From the NCBI RefSeq assembly GCF_004217415.1, contig NZ_SHLI01000001.1, positions 744,001 through 808,000 on the forward strand: 64,000 nucleotides of DNA. Direction: 5' to 3'. The stretch's first letter is position 1. Each line of letters opens with the position of its first letter. Of this stretch, positions 47,648 through 55,703 are shown one piece after another. Position numbers and translations under genes: made by a program. This DNA comes from Spiribacter vilamensis. GTDB taxonomy: Bacteria > Pseudomonadota > Gammaproteobacteria > Nitrococcales > Nitrococcaceae. The notes beneath the pieces were generated by a model, which was not told the DNA's origin, did not search any database, and saw nothing but the letters and a program-made list of their open reading frames with translations.

Positions 47648-48391
47648 TTATCCATCGACAACGGCATCCCAGTGTTCACGGATGTCCCACTCACCGGCGC
47701 TGAAACGATCGGCTGGCAGCTTGAGCACTGCGTCGATGAAACGCGCCACATTCTCCGGTGACGTGAGAGCATCGTTCTCCTTAAGCGCGCGGAAGTTCTC
47801 CACCGCGGGGAAATCCTCGACCGACTGTGATCGGATCAACGACTGCATCGGCGTATCCACTACGCCTGGCCGCAGGCTGCCGACGCTGATCGATGACTCG
47901 GCAAGCTCCTGATGCAGAACCTCATAAGCCATGTATAACGCCGCTTTACTAATGCAATAAGCGCCCCAGCCAGGCAGCGCTCGGTGCGCCGCGCCCGATG
48001 AGATATGCAGGATTCGGGCATCCGTGTCCATCATCGGCCGGAGCCTGCGGCTGAGCGCGATCGGCGCCTCCAGGTTGATGGCTAGGTGCTGGCGGATATC
48101 GTCGGCGGATTGATCCAGCAATGGCCCGACTGGTGCCAGGACGCCGGCGTTATGAATCAGCGCCTCGACGCCTGATTCGCCAACGGCGCCTTCGATCGCT
48201 GTCTGACCTTCATCAGTGCTCACATCCGCGGCACAGGCATGGATTGCCGGATTTTCCGCGGCCAGCGCCTCAAGCGGCTCGCTGCGACGCCCGATGGCCA
48301 GCACGGCTCGGCTCTGTTCGGCATAGCGCAACGCCAGAGCGCGCCCGATACCCGTCCCGGCACCGGTAATGATGGTTATCAAATCCGACAT
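47648..48391 (-). CDS. Short-chain dehydrogenase/reductase
   Basis: An NAD(P)-dependent oxidoreductase of the classical SDR family. The 247 residues have the cofactor loop ITGAGTGIGRALALRYA (8-24), HNAGVLAPVG, the catalytic Ser in HISSGAAHRALPG near 131, and the YxxxK pair in WGAYCISKAALYMAY near 145. PGVVDTPMQ follows the active site. The C-terminal part (AVENFRALKENDALTSPENV) resembles sepiapterin- or benzil-reductase-like SDRs. The substrate is unknown. It is the last gene of normal composition before the accessory island. Confidence 0.88.
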   Translation of the reverse strand: MSDLITIITGAGTGIGRALALRYAEQSRAVLAIGRRSEPLEALAAENPAIHACAADVSTDEGQTAIEGAVGESGVEALIHNAGVLAPVGPLLDQSADDIRQHLAINLEAPIALSRRLRPMMDTDARILHISSGAAHRALPGWGAYCISKAALYMAYEVLHQELAESSISVGSLRPGVVDTPMQSLIRSQSVEDFPAVENFRALKENDALTSPENVARFIDAVLKLPADRFSAGEWDIREHWDAVVDG

Positions 48392-48542
48392 ATCCGCTCT
48401 CCCCTACCTAAATGTCCGTACGATTTAGAGCTAATGCGTGGCGTGTAGAGCGACCCGTGGGCTTCGATTCATTTAGTCAGTTCCTTAGCCTTCATCTAGA
48501 TATGTCCATCGGATCGCTCAATTCCGCATAAAAGATAGCTGA

Positions 48543-48586
48543 GGCGCGCAAAATTGCGAGCGCCGGCTTAAGCGTATAGTTATTTG
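48543..48586 (-). other. Hairpin after the coiled-coil gene (possible degenerate attC)
   Basis: On the minus strand, the stop of the upstream gene lies in AAATAAC, which recalls the attC R'' box (RYYYAAC). A GC-rich stem (GGCGC...GCGCC) closes over an AT loop at 48543-48564. I could not find a convincing R' partner. It may be a terminator without a T-run or the remnant of a cassette end. Confidence 0.2.
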
Positions 48587-49524
48587 CCTCCGCCGATTCT
48601 ATTGAACTGAGTAATTCGATAGGTCAGCTTTGCCTCTCTGTTAAGCGGTCGCACTTCACGGACTAGACACTCCGCTTCACAATAGGTTTGTGCGGCGACC
48701 CGCCCCTCCTCAACCGCTTCTTCGAATTGTGCAGCGGCATCTTTAGTAACTGTTCCATAAAGGGTGTCTCCATCATTCACTCGTAGCTCGAATCTCCTGT
48801 GCTCAGGCAAAAGCCCCAAGAGGACCCCGGATATCGACTCCGTTTTCTCATCGATTTCGGTTGCTTCGGTTCGCATTCTGCCGCGATCGATTGCCATGGC
48901 ATCCAATGAAAATTCCGTTTTATCTTCCACAACCCGAATCGTTGCTTCCTTCGAATCCAACTCCTTAAAGAAGTCACGCATTACGACCAATGTCCGAGAA
49001 TCCAAGTCCTCTAAGACTCGCTCGAATTCACTGTCGCTCTCGACCGACGCAGTAAAGAGGAGATGCGACACATTTGATACTACTTCTTTAAGCGCCGTCT
49101 CGTGCAGTTCATCCTGATCGGAGAGCTCCTCAAGGACAAAACCAAACGATCCGTGAGTCAGTCCTGTAACCATCAAATTAGTACTTGCGCGCATCGGTAT
49201 TCGGCCCCGTTCACCCAAAGCGCCCAACTCCTGCTTCGCATACAACCTAGAAACCAACCCTTGGTAGTGCTCAAGGGCTTTTCCAGCGAAATCGGCGGCA
49301 ATTCCACGCGAACCGAATACCGGTTTACCTGAAAAAAATAGAGCGACATTGGCAAATGGTGATTCAGCGCACTTGAGTCGCTCAATTTCCGCACCGACTT
49401 CCTCGATTTTCTCGGAAAACTGAGACTCGCCAACTATGTCGCCCATTTCCTGCGCATCTGTTTGGAGTTTGCGCAGTTCGGCTAACTCTGCCTGAAGCGA
49501 ATCAATTCTTAGCTTATGGGGCAT
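48580..49524 (-). CDS. Unknown protein with N-terminal coiled coil, partner of the nucleotidyltransferase
   Basis: I do not recognise a named domain in this 314-residue protein. Residues 1-55 (LRIDSLQAELAELRKLQ and SEKIEEVGAEIERLK) are a charged coiled coil. The middle part includes FFSGKPVFGSRGIAADFAG, GLVSRLYAKQ and MVTGLTHGSFGFVLEEL. The C-terminal part is mixed alpha/beta (RFELRVNDGDTLYGTVT and RITQFNRIG). The start overlaps the 3' end of the DUF6932-like gene by 11 bases, so the two are translationally coupled. Base composition is more AT-rich than in flanking core genes. A role as antitoxin or effector partner is possible but not shown. Confidence 0.7.
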   Translation of the reverse strand: MPHKLRIDSLQAELAELRKLQTDAQEMGDIVGESQFSEKIEEVGAEIERLKCAESPFANVALFFSGKPVFGSRGIAADFAGKALEHYQGLVSRLYAKQELGALGERGRIPMRASTNLMVTGLTHGSFGFVLEELSDQDELHETALKEVVSNVSHLLFTASVESDSEFERVLEDLDSRTLVVMRDFFKELDSKEATIRVVEDKTEFSLDAMAIDRGRMRTEATEIDEKTESISGVLLGLLPEHRRFELRVNDGDTLYGTVTKDAAAQFEEAVEEGRVAAQTYCEAECLVREVRPLNREAKLTYRITQFNRIGGGK

Positions 49525-50092
49525 CAGCCGAGCCTCCAGTGACTAACTCCCGCGCTTGGCTGTCATCACCAACCAGCGGCACCTGTAGAATCCCCTTCCA
49601 CAAATAGGTCTCCCGTTGGTGGGAAAATAGTCCGAACCAAAAGCGTGAGTACGAGACGACCATCTCGGCCGGGATTTCAAGATCAATGAAGAACGCGTCA
49701 CATGAATAGTTCGCTTTTATCACAGACCTCTTGAATAGATCTGAATTCTCGCGACAGAAGGCTGCCCAATCAGAGTATTGTTTGCGCCCCGGCGGGCGCC
49801 GAGCGAAAGTGACAATATCGACATCGGCGGGCGATCGGTTTCGGTTGCTCTCGCAATCCTCGACGAAACTTCCAGCAATCCACTGGAATCCACTCTGTAT
49901 TCCCGAGCGCACAAGTTCCGCCCGGTAATCGAGCAACCCTCTCATTATCGCATCTCGCTCGGGACTGCCCGCAAAGCCGGAGACGAGATCGGTTATCGAG
50001 ACTCGAAAAGGGGCCATCGCCGCGGCATCAGTGGGGCCAATCTCCGGTAAAAAGGGCGGCAGCACGCCTGAGTGATTAAAGTTAGGGATCAT
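49514..50092 (-). CDS. DUF6932-like nucleotidyltransferase-fold protein
   Basis: The 192 residues begin MIPNFNHSGVLPPFLPEIGP, the opening of the DUF6932 family. The core carries a polymerase-beta-type nucleotidyltransferase motif: WIAGSFVEDCE (Gly75-Ser76), then RSPADVDIVTF (Asp90 and Asp92), with Asp132 in NYSCDAFFIDLE as a possible third acid. Such minimal nucleotidyltransferases include toxins and antitoxins of MNT/HEPN, AbiE and MenT type. It overlaps the downstream coiled-coil gene. GGAGAGGGA directly precedes the ATG and abuts the decayed IS481 transposase end, which may have disturbed its original promoter. Confidence 0.75.
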   Translation of the reverse strand: MIPNFNHSGVLPPFLPEIGPTDAAAMAPFRVSITDLVSGFAGSPERDAIMRGLLDYRAELVRSGIQSGFQWIAGSFVEDCESNRNRSPADVDIVTFARRPPGRKQYSDWAAFCRENSDLFKRSVIKANYSCDAFFIDLEIPAEMVVSYSRFWFGLFSHQRETYLWKGILQVPLVGDDSQARELVTGGSADAP

Positions 50093-50100
50093 TCCCTCTC

Positions 50101-50989
50101 CTAGCTACCAAGACCTGATTGTTCGTATACCTGTTTCCGGAATAAATTGGGTTTTCCCTATGCCAGCGCTTGAGCGCCTGAACCCGGGTTATGTGGCGCT
50201 GGGCCCGCTAATGCGCCCGTTGAACCGCTCTACAAGCCCATTCGTCTGGGCATGCCGACGCGGCGTCAGTCGATAGTCAATGTCCATCTTCGTACACAAC
50301 CGGTCGAGCACATGCCGCTCGGAGGGCTGGCGGTTTTTCTGGGTGAAGCGGTCGGTGAAGACCTGGTCGTTGTCAGTGAGCAGCGCATGGATATGAAACG
50401 GGGCCTTCTCGTGCAGATGCTTGGTAAAGCGCAGGGCGGCCTCTCTCGACTTCTCCCGGTGGCGCTCCAGGTAGACCCAGCGGCTGGCCCGATCGATCGC
50501 CACGAACAGATACGTACGTCCCTCCTCGTCGGCCATGGCGGGCAGGTAATTGATGTCCACGTGCACAAACTTTGGCTCGTAGTCCTTGAACGTCTTCGCG
50601 GGCTTCACCTCATCTTCAGGCTGCGCCACCAGGTCCCTGAGGTTAGAGACGCCATGGCGGACCAGCAGCCGTTGCAGCGTCGAGCGATTGAGGTCGGGTT
50701 CGATAAGCTCGCGCACCACCACCAGCAGGTCGTCGGTGGAGAGCAGCAGCGAGCGCCGCAGCTCCACCACAATCGCCTCCTGCGCCGCGGGCAGCGCCGT
50801 GTGGAGCGTGTGCGGCCGATGGCTGCGGTCGGCGCTGGTATCCCGATACTTCCACTTGCGCACCGTCGAGCGCGTGACGTTGTACTTCGTCGCCAGCGCC
50901 CGCTCGGACAGGGCCGACTGGCGGATCTCTTCCCGCAACTGTGGCGTCGTTCGGACCTGCGTGTGAATAGTCGCACCGCTCATGCTCAA
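50101..50989 (-). pseudogene. IS481-family transposase, decayed
   Basis: The first 267 codons are an IS481-type transposase: an N-terminal helix-turn-helix (LREEIRQSALSERALATKYN, RSTVRKWKYRD) and an integrase core with all three catalytic acids (VHVDINYLP, LLTDNDQVF, TNGLVERFNGRI). Directly after the Glu region the frame hits a stop at about 50191. The following bases still encode the family's C-terminus in other frames (HITRVQALKRWH, then KPNLFRKQVYEQSGLGS up to a TAG at 50101). An internal deletion after RFNGRIS and a one-base loss in an A-run near 50154 explain this. No clear terminal inverted repeats are left. It lies between the cassette array and the nucleotidyltransferase module. Confidence 0.85.
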
Positions 50990-51116
50990 CTTCCTGCGCT
51001 TTCCGCTTTCAGGCTCTCACCGAGCGCCTCAAGGGCAGCTCGACCTTGGAATAAAGCATAACTCTTTGAAGGTATATGATCACTCAGGTCGCGACACCTA
51101 GCCATGGTTCGAATAA

Positions 51117-51185
51117 CACCAACCGTGAGCCGCGCCCCAGGGAGTGCAGCGGATTGCGGCGTCTGGCTCGACGGCCTGGTTATGC
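51117..51185 (-). other. attC site following the HicAB cassette
   Basis: Read on the minus strand it runs from GCATAAC (R''-like, one mismatch to RYYYAAC) to GTTGGTG (R'-like). Inner arms GAGCC/GGCTC and CGCC/GGCG can pair. The TAA in the R'' box is where the hicB frame would end if its apparent one-base insertion were removed, which is the usual place for a cassette gene to stop. Confidence 0.6.
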
Positions 51186-51195
51186 GGCATGCACG

Positions 51196-51402
51196 TTAAC
51201 CACCTCGCTGTATGCAGTGCGGTTCGGGGACGGGCTCGCCTTGTTCCTTGAGACCCTCGAAATGGAATTCGATGGCGTTTCGGATCAGCTGGAGCGCTTC
51301 TCCTCGCGTCTCGCCCGCAGCAACGCATCCCGGCAAATCCGGGACATATGCACCCCAACTGGTGGGGCCTTCTTCTACAATGACGGTGAATTGCATGAAC
51401 AT
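51196..51402 (-). CDS. hicB: HicB-family antitoxin, apparently frameshifted at its C-terminus
   Basis: HicB neutralises the HicA mRNA interferase. The 68 residues show the partial RNase-H-like fold: FTVIVEEGPTSWGAYVPDLP, GCVAAGETRGEALQLIRNAI and LKEQGEPVPEP. The expected C-terminal strand is not in frame: the current end is HCIQRGG. Removing one base near 51217-51222 would give PEPTAYSEVVNVHAA and a TAA inside the attC R'' box, a much more family-like ending. Either the gene has a recent frameshift or the tail is a natural variant. It follows hicA by three bases. Confidence 0.8.
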   Translation of the reverse strand: MFMQFTVIVEEGPTSWGAYVPDLPGCVAAGETRGEALQLIRNAIEFHFEGLKEQGEPVPEPHCIQRGG

Positions 51403-51405
51403 CTC

Positions 51406-51594
51406 CTACTTCTTGAGGCCAGCCTGCTTCCGGACATTGTTCAGAGTGCCGGGCCGCACATCAATATTGAGCTTTCCCGGAACCGTGACGGTTCCCGAAT
51501 TGGTTGGGCACTTGAATTGCTGGTGACTCCCGCGTTGTCTGGCCTGTTGCCACCCGTCCGCCTCAAGTCGCTCGATCAAATCCCTCACTTTCAT
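51406..51594 (-). CDS. hicA: HicA-family mRNA interferase toxin
   Basis: HicA is a small double-stranded-RNA-binding-fold ribonuclease that cleaves mRNA and halts growth until bound by HicB. The 62 residues read MKVRDLIERLEADGWQQ, the catalytic-His block RQRGSHQQFKCP (His24), TVTVPGKLNIDVRPGTL, and end VRKQAGLKK, a complete family pattern. It precedes hicB in the common toxin-first order and lies in an integron-like cassette, where toxin-antitoxin pairs are frequent and stabilise arrays. Confidence 0.9.
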   Translation of the reverse strand: MKVRDLIERLEADGWQQARQRGSHQQFKCPTNSGTVTVPGKLNIDVRPGTLNNVRKQAGLKK

Positions 51595-51623
51595 TAATCC
51601 ATATCCACGATCTCGATCTAGGC

Positions 51624-51686
51624 CGCTTAATGTGGTTATCTGCGGCGGCGACTAGCCGTCCTTAGATTGGCACAGTAAGCATTAGC
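51624..51686 (-). other. Degenerate attC-like site between the DUF4760-like gene and hicAB
   Basis: On the minus strand the site runs from AGCTAAT to ATTAAGC. Both core boxes carry the same G/C to A/T change (AAC to AAT, GTT to ATT), so they still pair. The arms GTG/CAC, ATCT/AGAT and CGGC/GCCG support a hairpin. The stop codon of the upstream gene lies in the first box. The altered core would be expected to impair recombination. Confidence 0.5.
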
Positions 51687-52188
51687 TATTTGCGATATTT
51701 CCATCTGTTATTGGCCTCATTCTCTTCCGTTCTTCAAAATCTCTTACAAGGTCGCCAAATTCCGTGTAGGCAGTAGGGCGTGTTTGCTGGATCTTGTCAA
51801 TATATGAACGAAATCGTTTGTGAGTGCTAATGAGCTGCGACCCTGACATTATATAAAGGAGGTCTTTGTCGAACACGCCTGAATTCATACCTACAGATAA
51901 ATGCTCAAGAATACCAAGTAAACTGCGAATCGTACTCATAAGCTGAAAGTCGTTTTCTATTTCTTTAAGGTCTTTTGAGGCCAACGGGGCTTTCCCCCAG
52001 CGCTCATCTCGCTCGTGCCTTGCCTCCAGCCAGGCTGGTCTAATTTTCTGGACAAACTCGAAAGTTGCTTGCTTTTTCCTCCGTCCATGGTCTGCGTTTA
52101 ATGCCTTTAATGCGAACCCAACCTGAACCACGAGAACAGCAGCTGTAATAACGGCAATCATGAGGGATGCGATTTCAAATGTAGTCAT
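51682..52188 (-). CDS. DUF4760-like single-TM protein
   Basis: The 168 residues have one N-terminal TM helix (IASLMIAVITAAVLVVQVGF, about 6-25) and a cytoplasmic helical domain with RKKQATFEFVQKIRPAWLEA, LLGILEHLSVGMNSGVFD and YLVRDFEE-like GDLVRDFEERKRM. The pattern around ILEHLSVGMNSGVFDKDLL matches the DUF4760 family, whose function is unknown. Such proteins are common in integron cassettes and genomic islands. The start follows 13 bases after an attC site, typical cassette spacing. Confidence 0.7.
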   Translation of the reverse strand: MTTFEIASLMIAVITAAVLVVQVGFALKALNADHGRRKKQATFEFVQKIRPAWLEARHERDERWGKAPLASKDLKEIENDFQLMSTIRSLLGILEHLSVGMNSGVFDKDLLYIMSGSQLISTHKRFRSYIDKIQQTRPTAYTEFGDLVRDFEERKRMRPITDGNIANS

Positions 52189-52201
52189 GCTATTTCCTCG
52201 A

Positions 52202-52261
52202 CGCTAACGTTTCGCATGAGGCACGCGAGATAGCGTGTCGCCCTCGATGCAATCGTTAGAC
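52202..52261 (-). other. attC site following the 160-residue gene
   Basis: A 60-base site. On the minus strand it begins GTCTAAC (perfect R'' consensus RYYYAAC) and ends GTTAGCG. Its arms pair well: GCAT/ATGC, GAGG/CCTC and CACGC/GCGTG. The size is that of the classic 59-base element. The R'' box complements the TTAGAC found at the upstream boundary of the same cassette (52766-52771). Confidence 0.8.
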
Positions 52262-52263
52262 AT

Positions 52264-52746
52264 TTAGCCGCCACGAGTCAGCTTCAAGGCTTCCAGAATC
52301 GCTTCGACGATTCGTTGCGCCCATTTTGGCAGTTTGGCCAGTAACCGACCAATGCTCCCGTTGACCGTTTCTATGTCCTGGATAGCCTCGTCACTGAAGG
52401 CGTTTCCTGTTTCCTCGTCAAAGTCAGACGTATTTCCCGGGATTGTAATGTCAATATTAGCCATATCGGCGGAGTTCTTGTATTTGCATGCTATGTATAC
52501 GAACTCTTCAAACAATGCGCCCAATGCTAGTTCAGAATCTGCTCCGATATCCTCCATCACAATTGCCGCGTCTTCCACGCTAAATCGATCTTTGAATTCG
52601 TGCGCCAAATATTGAGCAATGTACGCCATTCTCATTGGACCAAATTCACAGCCACGATGAAATGCGACAGAGCTGACGGTCAGCATAAAAGCAATAAATG
52701 CGTCTCTAAACTCATCTGGGTTTGGAGAATAGATGTCTTGCTCCAT
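52264..52746 (-). CDS. Unknown acidic protein in an integron-like cassette
   Basis: I do not recognise this 160-residue protein. It is helical in the first 90 residues (FIAFMLTVSSVAFHRGCEFG, YIAQYLAHEFKDRFSVED, LALGALFEEFVYIACKYKN). It then has a Thr/Asp-rich linker (ANIDITIPGNTSDFDEETG) and a C-terminal amphipathic helix (IGRLLAKLPKWAQRIVEAIL). The gene fills its cassette: it starts 20 bases after one attC and stops two bases before the next. The boundary bases of this cassette match each other perfectly, so it is the best-defined cassette here. Confidence 0.7.
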   Translation of the reverse strand: MEQDIYSPNPDEFRDAFIAFMLTVSSVAFHRGCEFGPMRMAYIAQYLAHEFKDRFSVEDAAIVMEDIGADSELALGALFEEFVYIACKYKNSADMANIDITIPGNTSDFDEETGNAFSDEAIQDIETVNGSIGRLLAKLPKWAQRIVEAILEALKLTRGG

Positions 52747-52765
52747 CGTAAAGCCCTCATTTGAT

Positions 52766-52864
52766 GTCTAACGACCAAGCTCTGCGGCATTTGACGCGAT
52801 GCCTGTTTTTGCGGCACCGAAAATGGGCAGCGGGTCAAATGTCCGCTGCAGCGCCTTGTTGGGC
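52766..52864 (-). other. attC site following the PIN-domain cassette
   Basis: A 99-base site with both core boxes matching consensus on the minus strand: GCCCAAC (RYYYAAC) and GTTAGAC (GTTRRRY). Between them the arms CATTTGAC/GTCAAATG pair over eight bases, with further GCGG/CCGC and CAAG/CTTG pairing. This is the clearest attC in the window. The R'' box complements the TTGGGC at the upstream edge of the PIN cassette. Confidence 0.85.
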
Positions 52865-52873
52865 CACAGCCCG

Positions 52874-53866
52874 TCAGGACGGAAAATCATCATCCTCGTC
52901 CTCCTCGAGTTCATGGTTTTCGAGCCTCTGAATCAGCTGATCGTAGGCATCTTCCTTGATCTTGTCCTTGTATTCAGCAACGAACTTGATCATGAACTCA
53001 AATACGTCTTGATCCCCCAGGATCCAGCTGACCTGATTGTTCGTCAGAGCCGCATCTACTATTTCGCTGACTTGCGATTGACTGAAATTTTCAAACCCGG
53101 CGAGCTTGGCTATTGCGCCGTGCGTTGTCACGAATGCGCAACTTCCAACAAGCTGTTGAACGGCCATTTCCTTCTCCAGCTCACTTGCCAACTTGATATC
53201 TGGATAGTGCTCTTTGAAAAAAGGTGCCAAGCGGCGGTAGAAGACCACCCTAGCATCCTTCTTATCCTTCCACTCACGGATCAGAAATTCCTTAGGCTTG
53301 TTTTCGTCAAGCACTGAAAAGTAGTCCCGATCGTCGGCTATGAGGTAAAGATCCTCGTCGTTTGGTACGTTCTCTAGCAAAGCCTCTCAATTTATGGCAT
53401 CTCCCAGTGACCCGTTCTTTCCTGGAGGATTTCCAACGTTCATTCGGAGCTTAGCTTTCGCTATCAATTGATCTGATATTTGAATATCTTTCGCTTTCTC
53501 GAAGAGCTCGTCAATTACTTGATCCGCTTTGAGGGAGTTACTTTCTATATCTTCGGCAATTTTTCCGATTAAGGATGAATGTTGCTTCTCGAACTCTTTC
53601 TGAAGATTTCGGAGTCCTCCGTATTCACCATAGTCTTTGCAGAGAGCCGGAAACTGCAGATTCAGCTTCTGATCCTTCAAACTCTTTAATGCAGCCGCGA
53701 TCTTCGTTTCGCGGTTCCGACGATATTCGTCAACCGTTTGTCGAGGTAGATGCAGAACGACGTTCCCTTTCTCTAACAGCACCTTGAGCTTGCGCAGTTC
53801 TTCCAGATCATCGTTAGTCAGATGATAGAAAGACAAGAAAACGTTGGTGTCGATAAAAACGTTCAT
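52874..53866 (-). pseudogene. PIN-domain (DUF4935-like) protein interrupted by an in-frame TGA
   Basis: The N-terminal part (53866 to 53387, 159 residues) begins MNVFIDTNVFLSFYHL, with the first PIN acid in FIDTN. RQTVDEYRRNRETK carries the second, and the part ends GSLGDAIN just before TGA. Without any frame change the next codons read EALLENVPNDEDLYLIADDRDYFS, the continuation expected of a PIN nuclease, and run to 52874. One TGG to TGA change (Trp to stop at about residue 160) explains the break. PIN proteins are metal-dependent RNases, often toxins. A truncated first half would lack the last acidic residues (ADDRD) and is probably inactive. Confidence 0.82.
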
Positions 53867-53887
53867 TGAGGCAGCTCTCTTTCTGGG

Positions 53888-53937
53888 GCCCAACGCCGCA
53901 TTCAGCGGACTGTCCGCTGCAATGCTTTGTGATACGA
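53888..53937 (-). other. Short attC-like site upstream of the PIN cassette
   Basis: On the minus strand a strong stem (GCATT with GCAGCGGAC against GTCCGCTG with AATGC) is followed by GTTGGGC, a perfect R' box (53888-53894). The R'' side is not recognisable, and the upstream gene runs on into the stem before stopping at 53902. This suggests that the R'' box and the original stop were lost by mutation. Confidence 0.6.
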
Positions 53938-54378
53938 GCTGGCAAGAAGCGCAACTTGAATCCACAAGTTCTCGTGACTTACTTCCGCCCGATGACTTAA
54001 AATATATGGCTCCCATCGATTCCAAACGCTAGCTGCGACAGGGGAAATACAGTTCTTTATTTTTTTGGAATCATAGAAATCAGTATCAATTTCGTAACCT
54101 ACGCTTTCAACTATACTAAGTATCCCGTTAATTCTTGCTTTAGTTTCAGGATCGCTTTTGAGGCTCTCAGCGAATGTGTCTGCAACATGCAATTCTCGCT
54201 GCAAACTTCTGATCTGAGAGTCAATATCCGATAGGTACGTTCTAGTGTCTTTCTGTATCTGTCGCTCAAAAGCTTTTTCAGAGACCAGCCAAGAACGTGC
54301 TGCATATAAAATACTGGAGGCCACGAATAAGTGGCCAATGGCAGTCAATGCCAAGCTCCATTTTTCATAATCACTCAT
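53902..54378 (-). CDS. Unknown single-TM protein, first gene of the cassette array
   Basis: The 158 residues start MSDYEKWSLALTAIGHLFVA. One TM helix (about 9-30) is followed by a helical cytoplasmic part (FERQIQKDTRTYLSDIDSQI, RELHVADTFAESLKSD, ILSIVESVGYEID). The layout resembles the DUF4760-like gene two cassettes on, but sequence identity is not obvious. I chose the ATG at 54378; the longer reading from 54450 adds a stretch with no ribosome-binding site. The last codons lie inside the attC-like stem, so the native C-terminus may have been extended. Confidence 0.65.
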   Translation of the reverse strand: MSDYEKWSLALTAIGHLFVASSILYAARSWLVSEKAFERQIQKDTRTYLSDIDSQIRSLQRELHVADTFAESLKSDPETKARINGILSIVESVGYEIDTDFYDSKKIKNCISPVAASVWNRWEPYILSHRAEVSHENLWIQVALLASSYHKALQRTVR

Positions 54379-54510
54379 AATTATCTCTATTCGTATAACT
54401 ACAATTGGGCCGCCAATGTATCGGATATACGGTATGGGCAGTCGCACCACCCGCTCAAATCGCCTCTAACTCAACAGCGTAGGAACGCCTCTTTGCCTGA
54501 TTTCCGCCAA

Positions 54511-54536
54511 CATATGCGGCCAGATGGCCGCATATG
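54511..54536. repeat. Perfect 12-base inverted repeat at the edge of the cassette array
   Basis: CATATGCGGCCA and TGGCCGCATATG flank a two-base GA spacer. The dyad lies 132 bases upstream of the first cassette gene. It may be an operator, a terminator-like structure or part of a recombination site; a GTTGGCG lies next to it on the minus strand but matches the integron core consensus only weakly. Confidence 0.5.
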
Positions 54537-54590
54537 CAGATATTGAAGTAACAGCACAGCATAAGCCCAGAATCTCATCCCTGAGATGAC

Positions 54591-54689
54591 TCAAGCAGAA
54601 TCAATGACTTCGCAACCCACTCCACACTTATCACGGCAAGGTATAGATCGCCCCTTGCGCTTGGTCGTGTGCATGGCCCTCTTCACCAT
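54591..54689 (-). CDS. Small Cys-rich ORF with a strong ribosome-binding site
   Basis: A 32-codon ORF, too short for usual calling. It starts at ATG 54689, with GGAGGTG at 54694-54700 and a four-base gap, a near-perfect Shine-Dalgarno sequence. The product is strongly basic in its first half (MHTTKRKGRS) and has three cysteines in IPCRDKCGVGC, then EVIDSA. It lies 54 bases downstream of the hydroxyacid dehydrogenase gene on the same strand and could share its message. I do not recognise the family. It could also be the remnant of a longer gene. Confidence 0.45.
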   Translation of the reverse strand: MVKRAMHTTKRKGRSIPCRDKCGVGCEVIDSA

Positions 54690-54743
54690 GGTTCACCTCC
54701 AGCCTACAAGCGACAGAGGTGCCCACTGCAGCTAAAAAACCCC

Positions 54744-55703
54744 CTACGTCACACAGCGAATCGGCTCTCCACCCTGCCAGGCACGAATATTCTCCACCGT
54801 CTGCTCGATAATGCGCTGGCGTGCCGGGCGGCTGCCCCAGGCGCTGTGCGGCGTCACGATTAGATTCGGAATGCCCGGCGCCAGCAGTGCATTGCCATCC
54901 ACCGGCGGTTCCGCTGACAAACCATCAAGGCCCGCGCCGCCGATCTCGCCGGTCCGCAATGCCTGCGCCAGCGCGGGCTCGTCGATCAGGCCGCCACGCG
55001 CCGTATTGATCAGCAACGCGGTCGGCTTCATGCGCCGTAACACCGCCGGGCCGATCATCTCCTGCGTCGCGTCCGTGAGTGGACAGTGCAGCGTGAGGAT
55101 ATCCGCCCGCTCAACACCCTCGTCGAAGGTGACCCGCCCTGCCCTTGGCGTCTCGACCCCTGGCCGCTCGGCGATCAGGACCTCCATCCCCAGCGCCTGC
55201 GCCTTCTCCACCACCGCGCCGCCGAGTTCACCGTAGCCCACCACGACCAGGGTCTGCCCGGCCAGCTCGCGGATCGGATAGTCCAGCAGGCAGAAATCCG
55301 GAGACTGGGCCCAGCGTCCGCCCTGAACGGCGCGGTGATAGTCGATCAGACGAGTACATAGCACGAGCATCAGTGTGATCGCATGCTGGCTGACCGCCTC
55401 GGTGCCGTAGCCGCGGCAGTTGACCACGGTGACGCCACGCTCGCGGGCGGCATCGATATCGATGTTGTTCACCCCCGTCGCCACGACATTGATTAGCGAC
55501 AGCTGTGGACAGGCGTCGAGGGTCTCGGCACCGATGACGCACTTGTTGGTAATGACGACCGACGCGTCGCCGATCCGGTCGATGACGGCCTCCGGTGAGG
55601 TCCGGCCAAAACTCCGCAAGTGCCCGCAAACAGCCGACAGTTCATCGAGATCGAGGTCGCCTCGATCCAGGGTTTCCCGATCAAGAAACGTGGTTTGCGT
55701 CAT
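54744..55703 (-). CDS. D-2-hydroxyacid dehydrogenase
   Basis: An NAD(P)-dependent oxidoreductase of the hydroxypyruvate/glycerate dehydrogenase group. The 319 residues contain the Rossmann motif VVVGYGELGGAVVEKAQALG near 153, the substrate Arg in INTARGGLIDEPAL near 233, the Glu region GLDGLSAEPPVDG, and the catalytic His in VTPHSAWGSRPARQ near 288. The wording is nearest the glycerate dehydrogenase (HprA-like) members. The gene is isolated, with 260 non-coding bases upstream. Confidence 0.9.
   Translation of the reverse strand: MTQTTFLDRETLDRGDLDLDELSAVCGHLRSFGRTSPEAVIDRIGDASVVITNKCVIGAETLDACPQLSLINVVATGVNNIDIDAARERGVTVVNCRGYGTEAVSQHAITLMLVLCTRLIDYHRAVQGGRWAQSPDFCLLDYPIRELAGQTLVVVGYGELGGAVVEKAQALGMEVLIAERPGVETPRAGRVTFDEGVERADILTLHCPLTDATQEMIGPAVLRRMKPTALLINTARGGLIDEPALAQALRTGEIGGAGLDGLSAEPPVDGNALLAPGIPNLIVTPHSAWGSRPARQRIIEQTVENIRAWQGGEPIRCVT

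Follow-up and report, generated by a model that had tools for sequence, protein, structure and literature searches.

In the cited portion of the work on IntegronFinder (PMC9024848), a cluster of attC sites lacking integron integrase (CALIN) comprises at least two clustered attC sites with no integrase nearby, holds few cassettes and is proposed to be a degraded integron. An integrase-less array of this kind is also in print for a halophile, Halorhodospira halochloris; the excerpt of that article used here (PMC7923331) describes a genome without intI, 10 cassettes including toxin-antitoxin ones, an insertion sequence (IS) adjoining the last attC, fragments of group IIB introns and an IS200/605 element. 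Here we analysed a stretch of 64 kb from Spiribacter vilamensis (NZ_SHLI01000001.1, positions 744,001 to 808,000; the whole stretch is called the window), in which an earlier note had read a run of genes as a CALIN. In agreement with that note, we conclude that this gene run is very probably a CALIN: an array of cassettes on the minus strand that lacks an integrase and was acquired horizontally. We hold to this reading because four attC sites were called by a model blind to them, because an integron integrase above the cut-off is absent from a genome listed as complete, because the starts of the cassettes agree with their R'' boxes, because the insertion splits two genes that are adjacent in all 13 congeners, and because one of the cassettes is found again, within the same limits, in an unrelated genome.

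The array is like the CALINs of IntegronFinder, and set against the cited portion of that work it shows no essential difference, except that an integrase above the cut-off is absent here from the entire genome and from 13 congeners. In comparison with the excerpted description of H. halochloris, the window array numbers about four cassettes and its IS is an IS481 remnant; the one search that covered introns, an Rfam scan, found none. Four loci of the same family or order (L018, L020, L021 and L028), which served as a source of training sites for our model, have an alike attC architecture, and three of them (L020, L021 and L028) share with the window array the rule that links a cassette start to its R'' box; all four differ in that an integrase or an integrase fragment is also present. 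The array thus adds another example of a known structure and leaves the general understanding of integrons unchanged. Here integron cassettes have reached a small genome and are decaying in it, in a genus without an integrase above the cut-off.

attC sites in the window

Single RYYYAAC and GTTRRRY boxes are frequent (26-28 of either kind on each strand of the window), and a covariance model of attC (R1) was therefore trained. Its 31 training sites were taken from relatives that do not belong to the genus, in the neighbourhood of their integrases or integrase fragments; they were listed by a rule-based script and then picked by hand for length and look, longer or doubtful ones being excluded, and the window sites were absent from the set. 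The structure of the model was supported within the training set, where 72 cells changed on both sides compared with a mean of 28.4 in 500 shuffles.

The model called four attC sites in the window, all on the minus strand, within 2.83 kb and with scores of 19-44 bits (Table 1). The best remaining match in the window was a partial one of 14.7 bits, and in an unfiltered scan of 48000-55000 the next match after the four sites reached 7.2 bits. When folded as DNA, the four sites had z values of -3.3 to -1.6 relative to shuffles. Two of them, site 2 with its two perfect boxes and the 60-base element of site 3, had been singled out in the earlier note and were recovered just as described. We therefore find at least two close attC sites in one orientation, as in a CALIN. 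The array extends over about 51111-54398, slightly more than the 51117-53896 proposed earlier. A scan of the window with Rfam at gathering thresholds gave zero matches.

Table 1. Coordinates of the array, its parts and neighbouring features (window positions unless a contig is named).
Feature	Coordinates	Strand	Description
attC site 1	53888-53935	-	R'' GTATCAC (AAC core lost), R' GTTGGGC; 34.2 bits; hairpin z -3.3
attC site 2	52766-52864	-	R'' GCCCAAC, R' GTTAGAC; 99 bases; 43.6 bits, E 6.6e-8; hairpin z -2.0
attC site 3	52202-52261	-	R'' GTCTAAC, R' GTTAGCG; 60 bases; 19.2 bits for 52203-52261; hairpin z -2.7
attC site 4	51111-51185	-	R'' GCATAAC, R' GTTATTC; 75 bases; 22.5 bits; hairpin z -1.6
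Cassette 1	53894-54398	-	DUF4760 protein (53902-54378); PF15956, 33.5 bits
Cassette 2	52772-53893	-	PIN-domain gene, PF16289; start/R'' exact
Cassette 3	52208-52771	-	160-aa protein (52264-52746); start/R'' exact
Cassette 4 (or remnants of two)	51117-52207	-	DUF4760 (51682-52188), HicA (51406-51594), HicB-like (51196-51402)
Second integrase-less array	C1:1189647-1191164 (L040:5648-7165)		between der and tRNA-Arg(cct); four attC sites, 51.4, 32.7, 25.7 and 23.6 bits
Whole insertion, absent from congeners	48408-54743		between SDR gene 47648-48391 and 2-hydroxyacid dehydrogenase gene 54744-55703
IS481-family remnant	50189-51101	-	left end ~51096-51101; transposase ORF 50189-50989; C-terminal part missing
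Two-gene unit	48580-50092	-	orf314 48580-49524 and DUF6932 49514-50092; beyond the array; PF22014

Agreement between cassette starts and R'' boxes

The start of an integron gene cassette complements the R'' box of its own attC site, and this is what we found over both the window array and a second array described below, the segment of cassette 4 failing to comply. In the window the pairs GTTGGGC/GCCCAAC and GTTAGAC/GTCTAAC were exact, as had been stated for these two cassettes; in the second array GTTATGC/GCATAAC and GTTATAA/TTATAAC were exact and GTTAGCT/ATCTAAC had one mismatch. Hence four of the five cassettes bounded by called sites were exact and the fifth had a single mismatch, and the true pairing was the only one of 120 to do as well. 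When the DUF4760-hicAB segment (3 mismatches) was included, 2/720 pairings were as good, with cassette 1 in its place (start picked by eye) 1/720, and with all seven segments 2/5040. The window alone (three cassettes) gave a permutation p of 0.17, which is not significant, and the second array alone gave the same value. The argument that this relation is hard to obtain by chance therefore did not hold for the window by itself and held when the second array was added. Two further cassettes had been credited with one mismatch each. This was borne out for the first cassette (GTTATAC/GTATCAC), the start of which is the best of 8 GTT positions in 54379-54743, and not for hicAB, where it depends on an unsupported site.

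In control arrays start and R'' agreed exactly in 5/5 (L020), 9/11 (L021) and 12/20 (L028) cassettes. Within one physical site, R'' and R' differed by means of 2.25 and 2.75 mismatches in the two arrays here and by 1.5-1.95 in the controls; a weaker agreement within a site is expected because R' would belong to the next cassette.

Search for an integrase in the genome and the genus

The genome comprises 2,076,021 bases in 2 contigs and is listed as 100% complete. No integron integrase (TIGR02249) above the cut-off was detected in the genome or in the window, which extends to the whole genome what the earlier note had stated for the window; two weak matches to the integrase profile were identified by NCBIfam as XerD and XerC. 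The integrase gene that makes an integron complete was therefore not found. The same search gave none above the cut-off in any of 14 genomes of the genus (this one and 13 congeners, several of which are incomplete, at 74-100%), and 9 of the 59 genomes in a wider set had one.

In the 14 genomes of the genus, the attC model had seven matches in this genome (E 0.5), one in the congener G011 and none in the other 12. All seven matches listed above 20 bits in a scan of this whole genome fall inside the two arrays. The lone site of G011 (L039:1501-1559, 38.3 bits) lies close to apparent transposase fragments, as judged by eye. At least one match at E 0.2 was present in 31/59 genomes of the wider set, and attC sites are therefore common in the order.

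An insertion between genes adjacent in the congeners

The genes on either side of the insertion are neighbours in 13/13 congeners, 11-33 bases apart as measured between aligned protein ends with the stop codon included (a contig end truncates the dehydrogenase match in G002 and G003). In the window 6.35 kb lie between them. The closest congener, G001, reads GTGACATAG-ATAGGGGAGAGCGG, and the window reads GTGACGTAG, the insert and GTAGGGGAGAGCGG; the low end of the insertion is approximate to a few bases. Variation between relatives, which the earlier note had regarded as a check on its reading, was thus seen in the absence of the insertion from every congener. Its other check, the scoring of the sites by an attC model, also came out in favour of that reading with the model trained here. 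In 1-kb windows the GC content was 45-52% over the cassettes (51000-54499), ~61% in the IS481 part, 50-56% in the part with the two-gene unit and 58-67% in the surroundings. On the side of the dehydrogenase gene, a leader of ~345 bases separates its stop codon from the first cassette.

The PIN cassette and its relatives

The PIN gene of cassette 2 is interrupted by an in-frame TGA at 53387-53389, which leaves pieces at 53390-53866 and 52874-53380. A reading of this region as two genes was rejected, as both pieces match L092 consecutively and in the same frame. When a two-sequence alignment of PIN proteins was used for a pattern scan of the species-genome collection, 38 further relatives were retrieved. 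Unbroken ones are among them: in 28/38 an open reading frame (ORF) with the same start runs for 297-332 aa, and of the rest five were missed by the ORF pattern, three are longer and two shorter. The closest relatives are in Marinobacterium sediminicola (L105, 84% identity), a Hyphomicrobiales metagenome-assembled genome (L106, 83%) and Nitrosomonas ureae (L107, 80%), and such close relatives across classes point to horizontal transfer. A search with a PIN piece found only itself among 54 genomes of the order and itself and G082 among 369 of the class.

In DNA alignment with L106, cassette 2 was 79% identical over window positions 53895-52770, the cassette limits being 53893-52772, and the similarity stops at the cassette ends. 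In blocks of 20 bases of a global alignment, mostly 13-20 bases were identical inside the cassette and 10-13 outside; four inside blocks were lower, with a minimum of 7 in the attC loop. Cassette 2 thus recurs in L106 with the same boundaries, as a cassette should.

The model found 26 attC matches (E up to 1) in 11/38 PIN loci, 26/26 of them on the strand of the PIN gene. By a manual count confirmed with a script, 7/38 loci (L106, L111, L122, L125, L127, L128 and L130) have a match at E <=0.01 that touches the PIN ORF or lies <=50 bases from it, and two more, L113 and L142, have a weaker one beside the gene. In L105 and L107 a CCCAACAAG box directly follows the PIN gene, as judged by eye. The PIN-domain gene is accordingly named here as attC-adjoining in records titled alpha-, beta- and gammaproteobacteria, the classes being those that the titles suggest.

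A second array in the same genome

About 391 kb from the window array, the genome holds a second integrase-less array (Table 1). Its cassettes encode a HigA-like helix-turn-helix protein, an 81-aa protein, a 148-aa protein and a GNAT acetyltransferase; upstream of the HigA-like gene there are remains that resemble, by eye, the end of a HigB toxin. A search for relatives of orf148 in plasmids returned little or nothing. Three of the hairpins had z values of -2.8 to -4.9 and one, at 0.07, was no better than shuffles. In G001, 14 bases separate the stop codon of der from tRNA-Arg(cct). Over 10 congener loci the two are close in 3/10 and have another gene of ~600 bases between them in 7/10; since the congeners differ at this spot, the second array cannot be read as a simple insertion at a conserved gene boundary.

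Origin and fate of the array

We suggest that about four cassettes, all on the minus strand, would first have been assembled by an integron integrase in a different cell and that the assembled block would then have been carried into the chromosome, where a copy of IS481 would have closed it off. Arrival as a pre-assembled block may have occurred by transfer together with IS-mediated or illegitimate recombination. The array is in decay, as seen in the stop codon inside the PIN reading frame, in the R'' box of site 1 that is without its AAC core, and in the failure of the model to support a site at the junction of DUF4760 and hicA. In a cell without an integrase the cassettes should not move, and for the attC hairpins to act an integrase would have to come in, for example on a plasmid; cassettes 2 and 3 would then be the best candidates for mobilisation because their boxes are intact. 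Any expression of the cassette genes presumably starts at promoters within the cassettes. A scan confined to the leader upstream of the first cassette showed no promoter-like match there.

Several observations weigh against a CALIN. The route of arrival is one that we infer. Hairpin energies are uneven, with site 4 and one site of the second array among the poorer, and two of the four window scores are modest (sites 3 and 4). The 19.2-bit site is missing from the whole-genome matches listed, for which 150 of 2623 first-look candidates were scored. As a fifth attC site, which the cassette count of the earlier note requires, we tried the DUF4760-hicA boundary (~51620-51690); it scored 1.1 bits and was rejected as unrecognisable, and from the called sites the DUF4760-hicAB segment breaks the start/R'' rule in 3 of 6 bases. 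The model finds zero attC sites beside the gene in 29/38 PIN relatives, including L105 and L107, and has no matches in G010, the congener that is home to a relative of hicAB. Homologues of the 160-aa protein were limited to itself in the 369 class genomes, and those of the DUF4760 protein at 51682-52188 to itself in the 54 order genomes.

Cassettes could also have been placed singly, at ordinary chromosomal (attG-like) sites, by a visiting plasmid-borne integrase that was later lost. Insertion by integrase at attG sites is described in the cited part of PMC12901181, and the presence of two separate arrays in intergenic spots, in a genus without an integrase above the cut-off, would fit such deposition; we nevertheless consider it unlikely, since the insertion starts with the leader and not at a cassette end, and its far side carries the IS481 remnant and two non-cassette genes. 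That both arrays are marks of visiting integrases acting in trans at ordinary chromosomal sites, and not pieces of dead integrons, seems to us quite unlikely. The decay of the array, and the integrases and attC arrays carried by the family members G014 and G019, would agree with a remnant of an old resident integron of the lineage from which intI and attI were deleted. This is very unlikely given that 0/13 congeners, several of them incomplete (74-100%), have an integrase above the cut-off, that 12/13 are without attC matches and the remaining one, G011, has a single site, and that the flanking genes are neighbours in all of them. As RYYYAAC and GTTRRRY boxes alone are common, hairpins might arise by chance between ordinary genes of non-integron origin; the scores of the model, the start/R'' rule as it holds across both arrays, the existence of a second array and the cassette-exact boundaries of the homologue make this scarcely conceivable. 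We thus retain the reading of a CALIN that was acquired horizontally.

Cassette contents

The proteins of cassette 4 match PF15956, PF07927 and PF15919, and the 160-aa protein of cassette 3 had zero family matches in Pfam or NCBIfam. A plasmid search with the latter gave two weak relatives, in Acidiphilium records, at 32.5% identity. With the DUF4760 protein at 51682-52188, searches of genome contigs and plasmids returned little or nothing, as did a search for attC site 2 in E. coli genomes. PADLOC at E 0.01 had zero matches for six window cassette proteins (the PIN protein represented by its N-terminal piece) and two proteins of the second array. A hicAB pair in the congener G010 (L094:1504-1916) is 70% identical in DNA to the window pair.

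Flanks of the array

An IS481 remnant closes the array. Its ORF matched NF033577 with 180.9 bits, under the cut-off of 224, over profile positions 9-239 of 284, and its left end is conserved in the congeners G012 and G004. When the DNA of 50100-54700 was compared with plasmids, matches were confined to the IS481 part among the best 20 of 1014. In the region of the two-gene unit the model scan gave zero attC matches; of its two genes, PADLOC matched one to the candidate PDC-M63A at 41.6 bits and the second to PDC-M63B with a weak 15.4 bits. Within the leader, a palindrome with 12-base arms, CATATGCGGCCA-TC-TGGCCGCATATG, lies at 54511-54536 before the first cassette, and ~78 bases at 54654-54731 recur at 81% elsewhere in the same genome (C1:1877554) and at 77% in G001.

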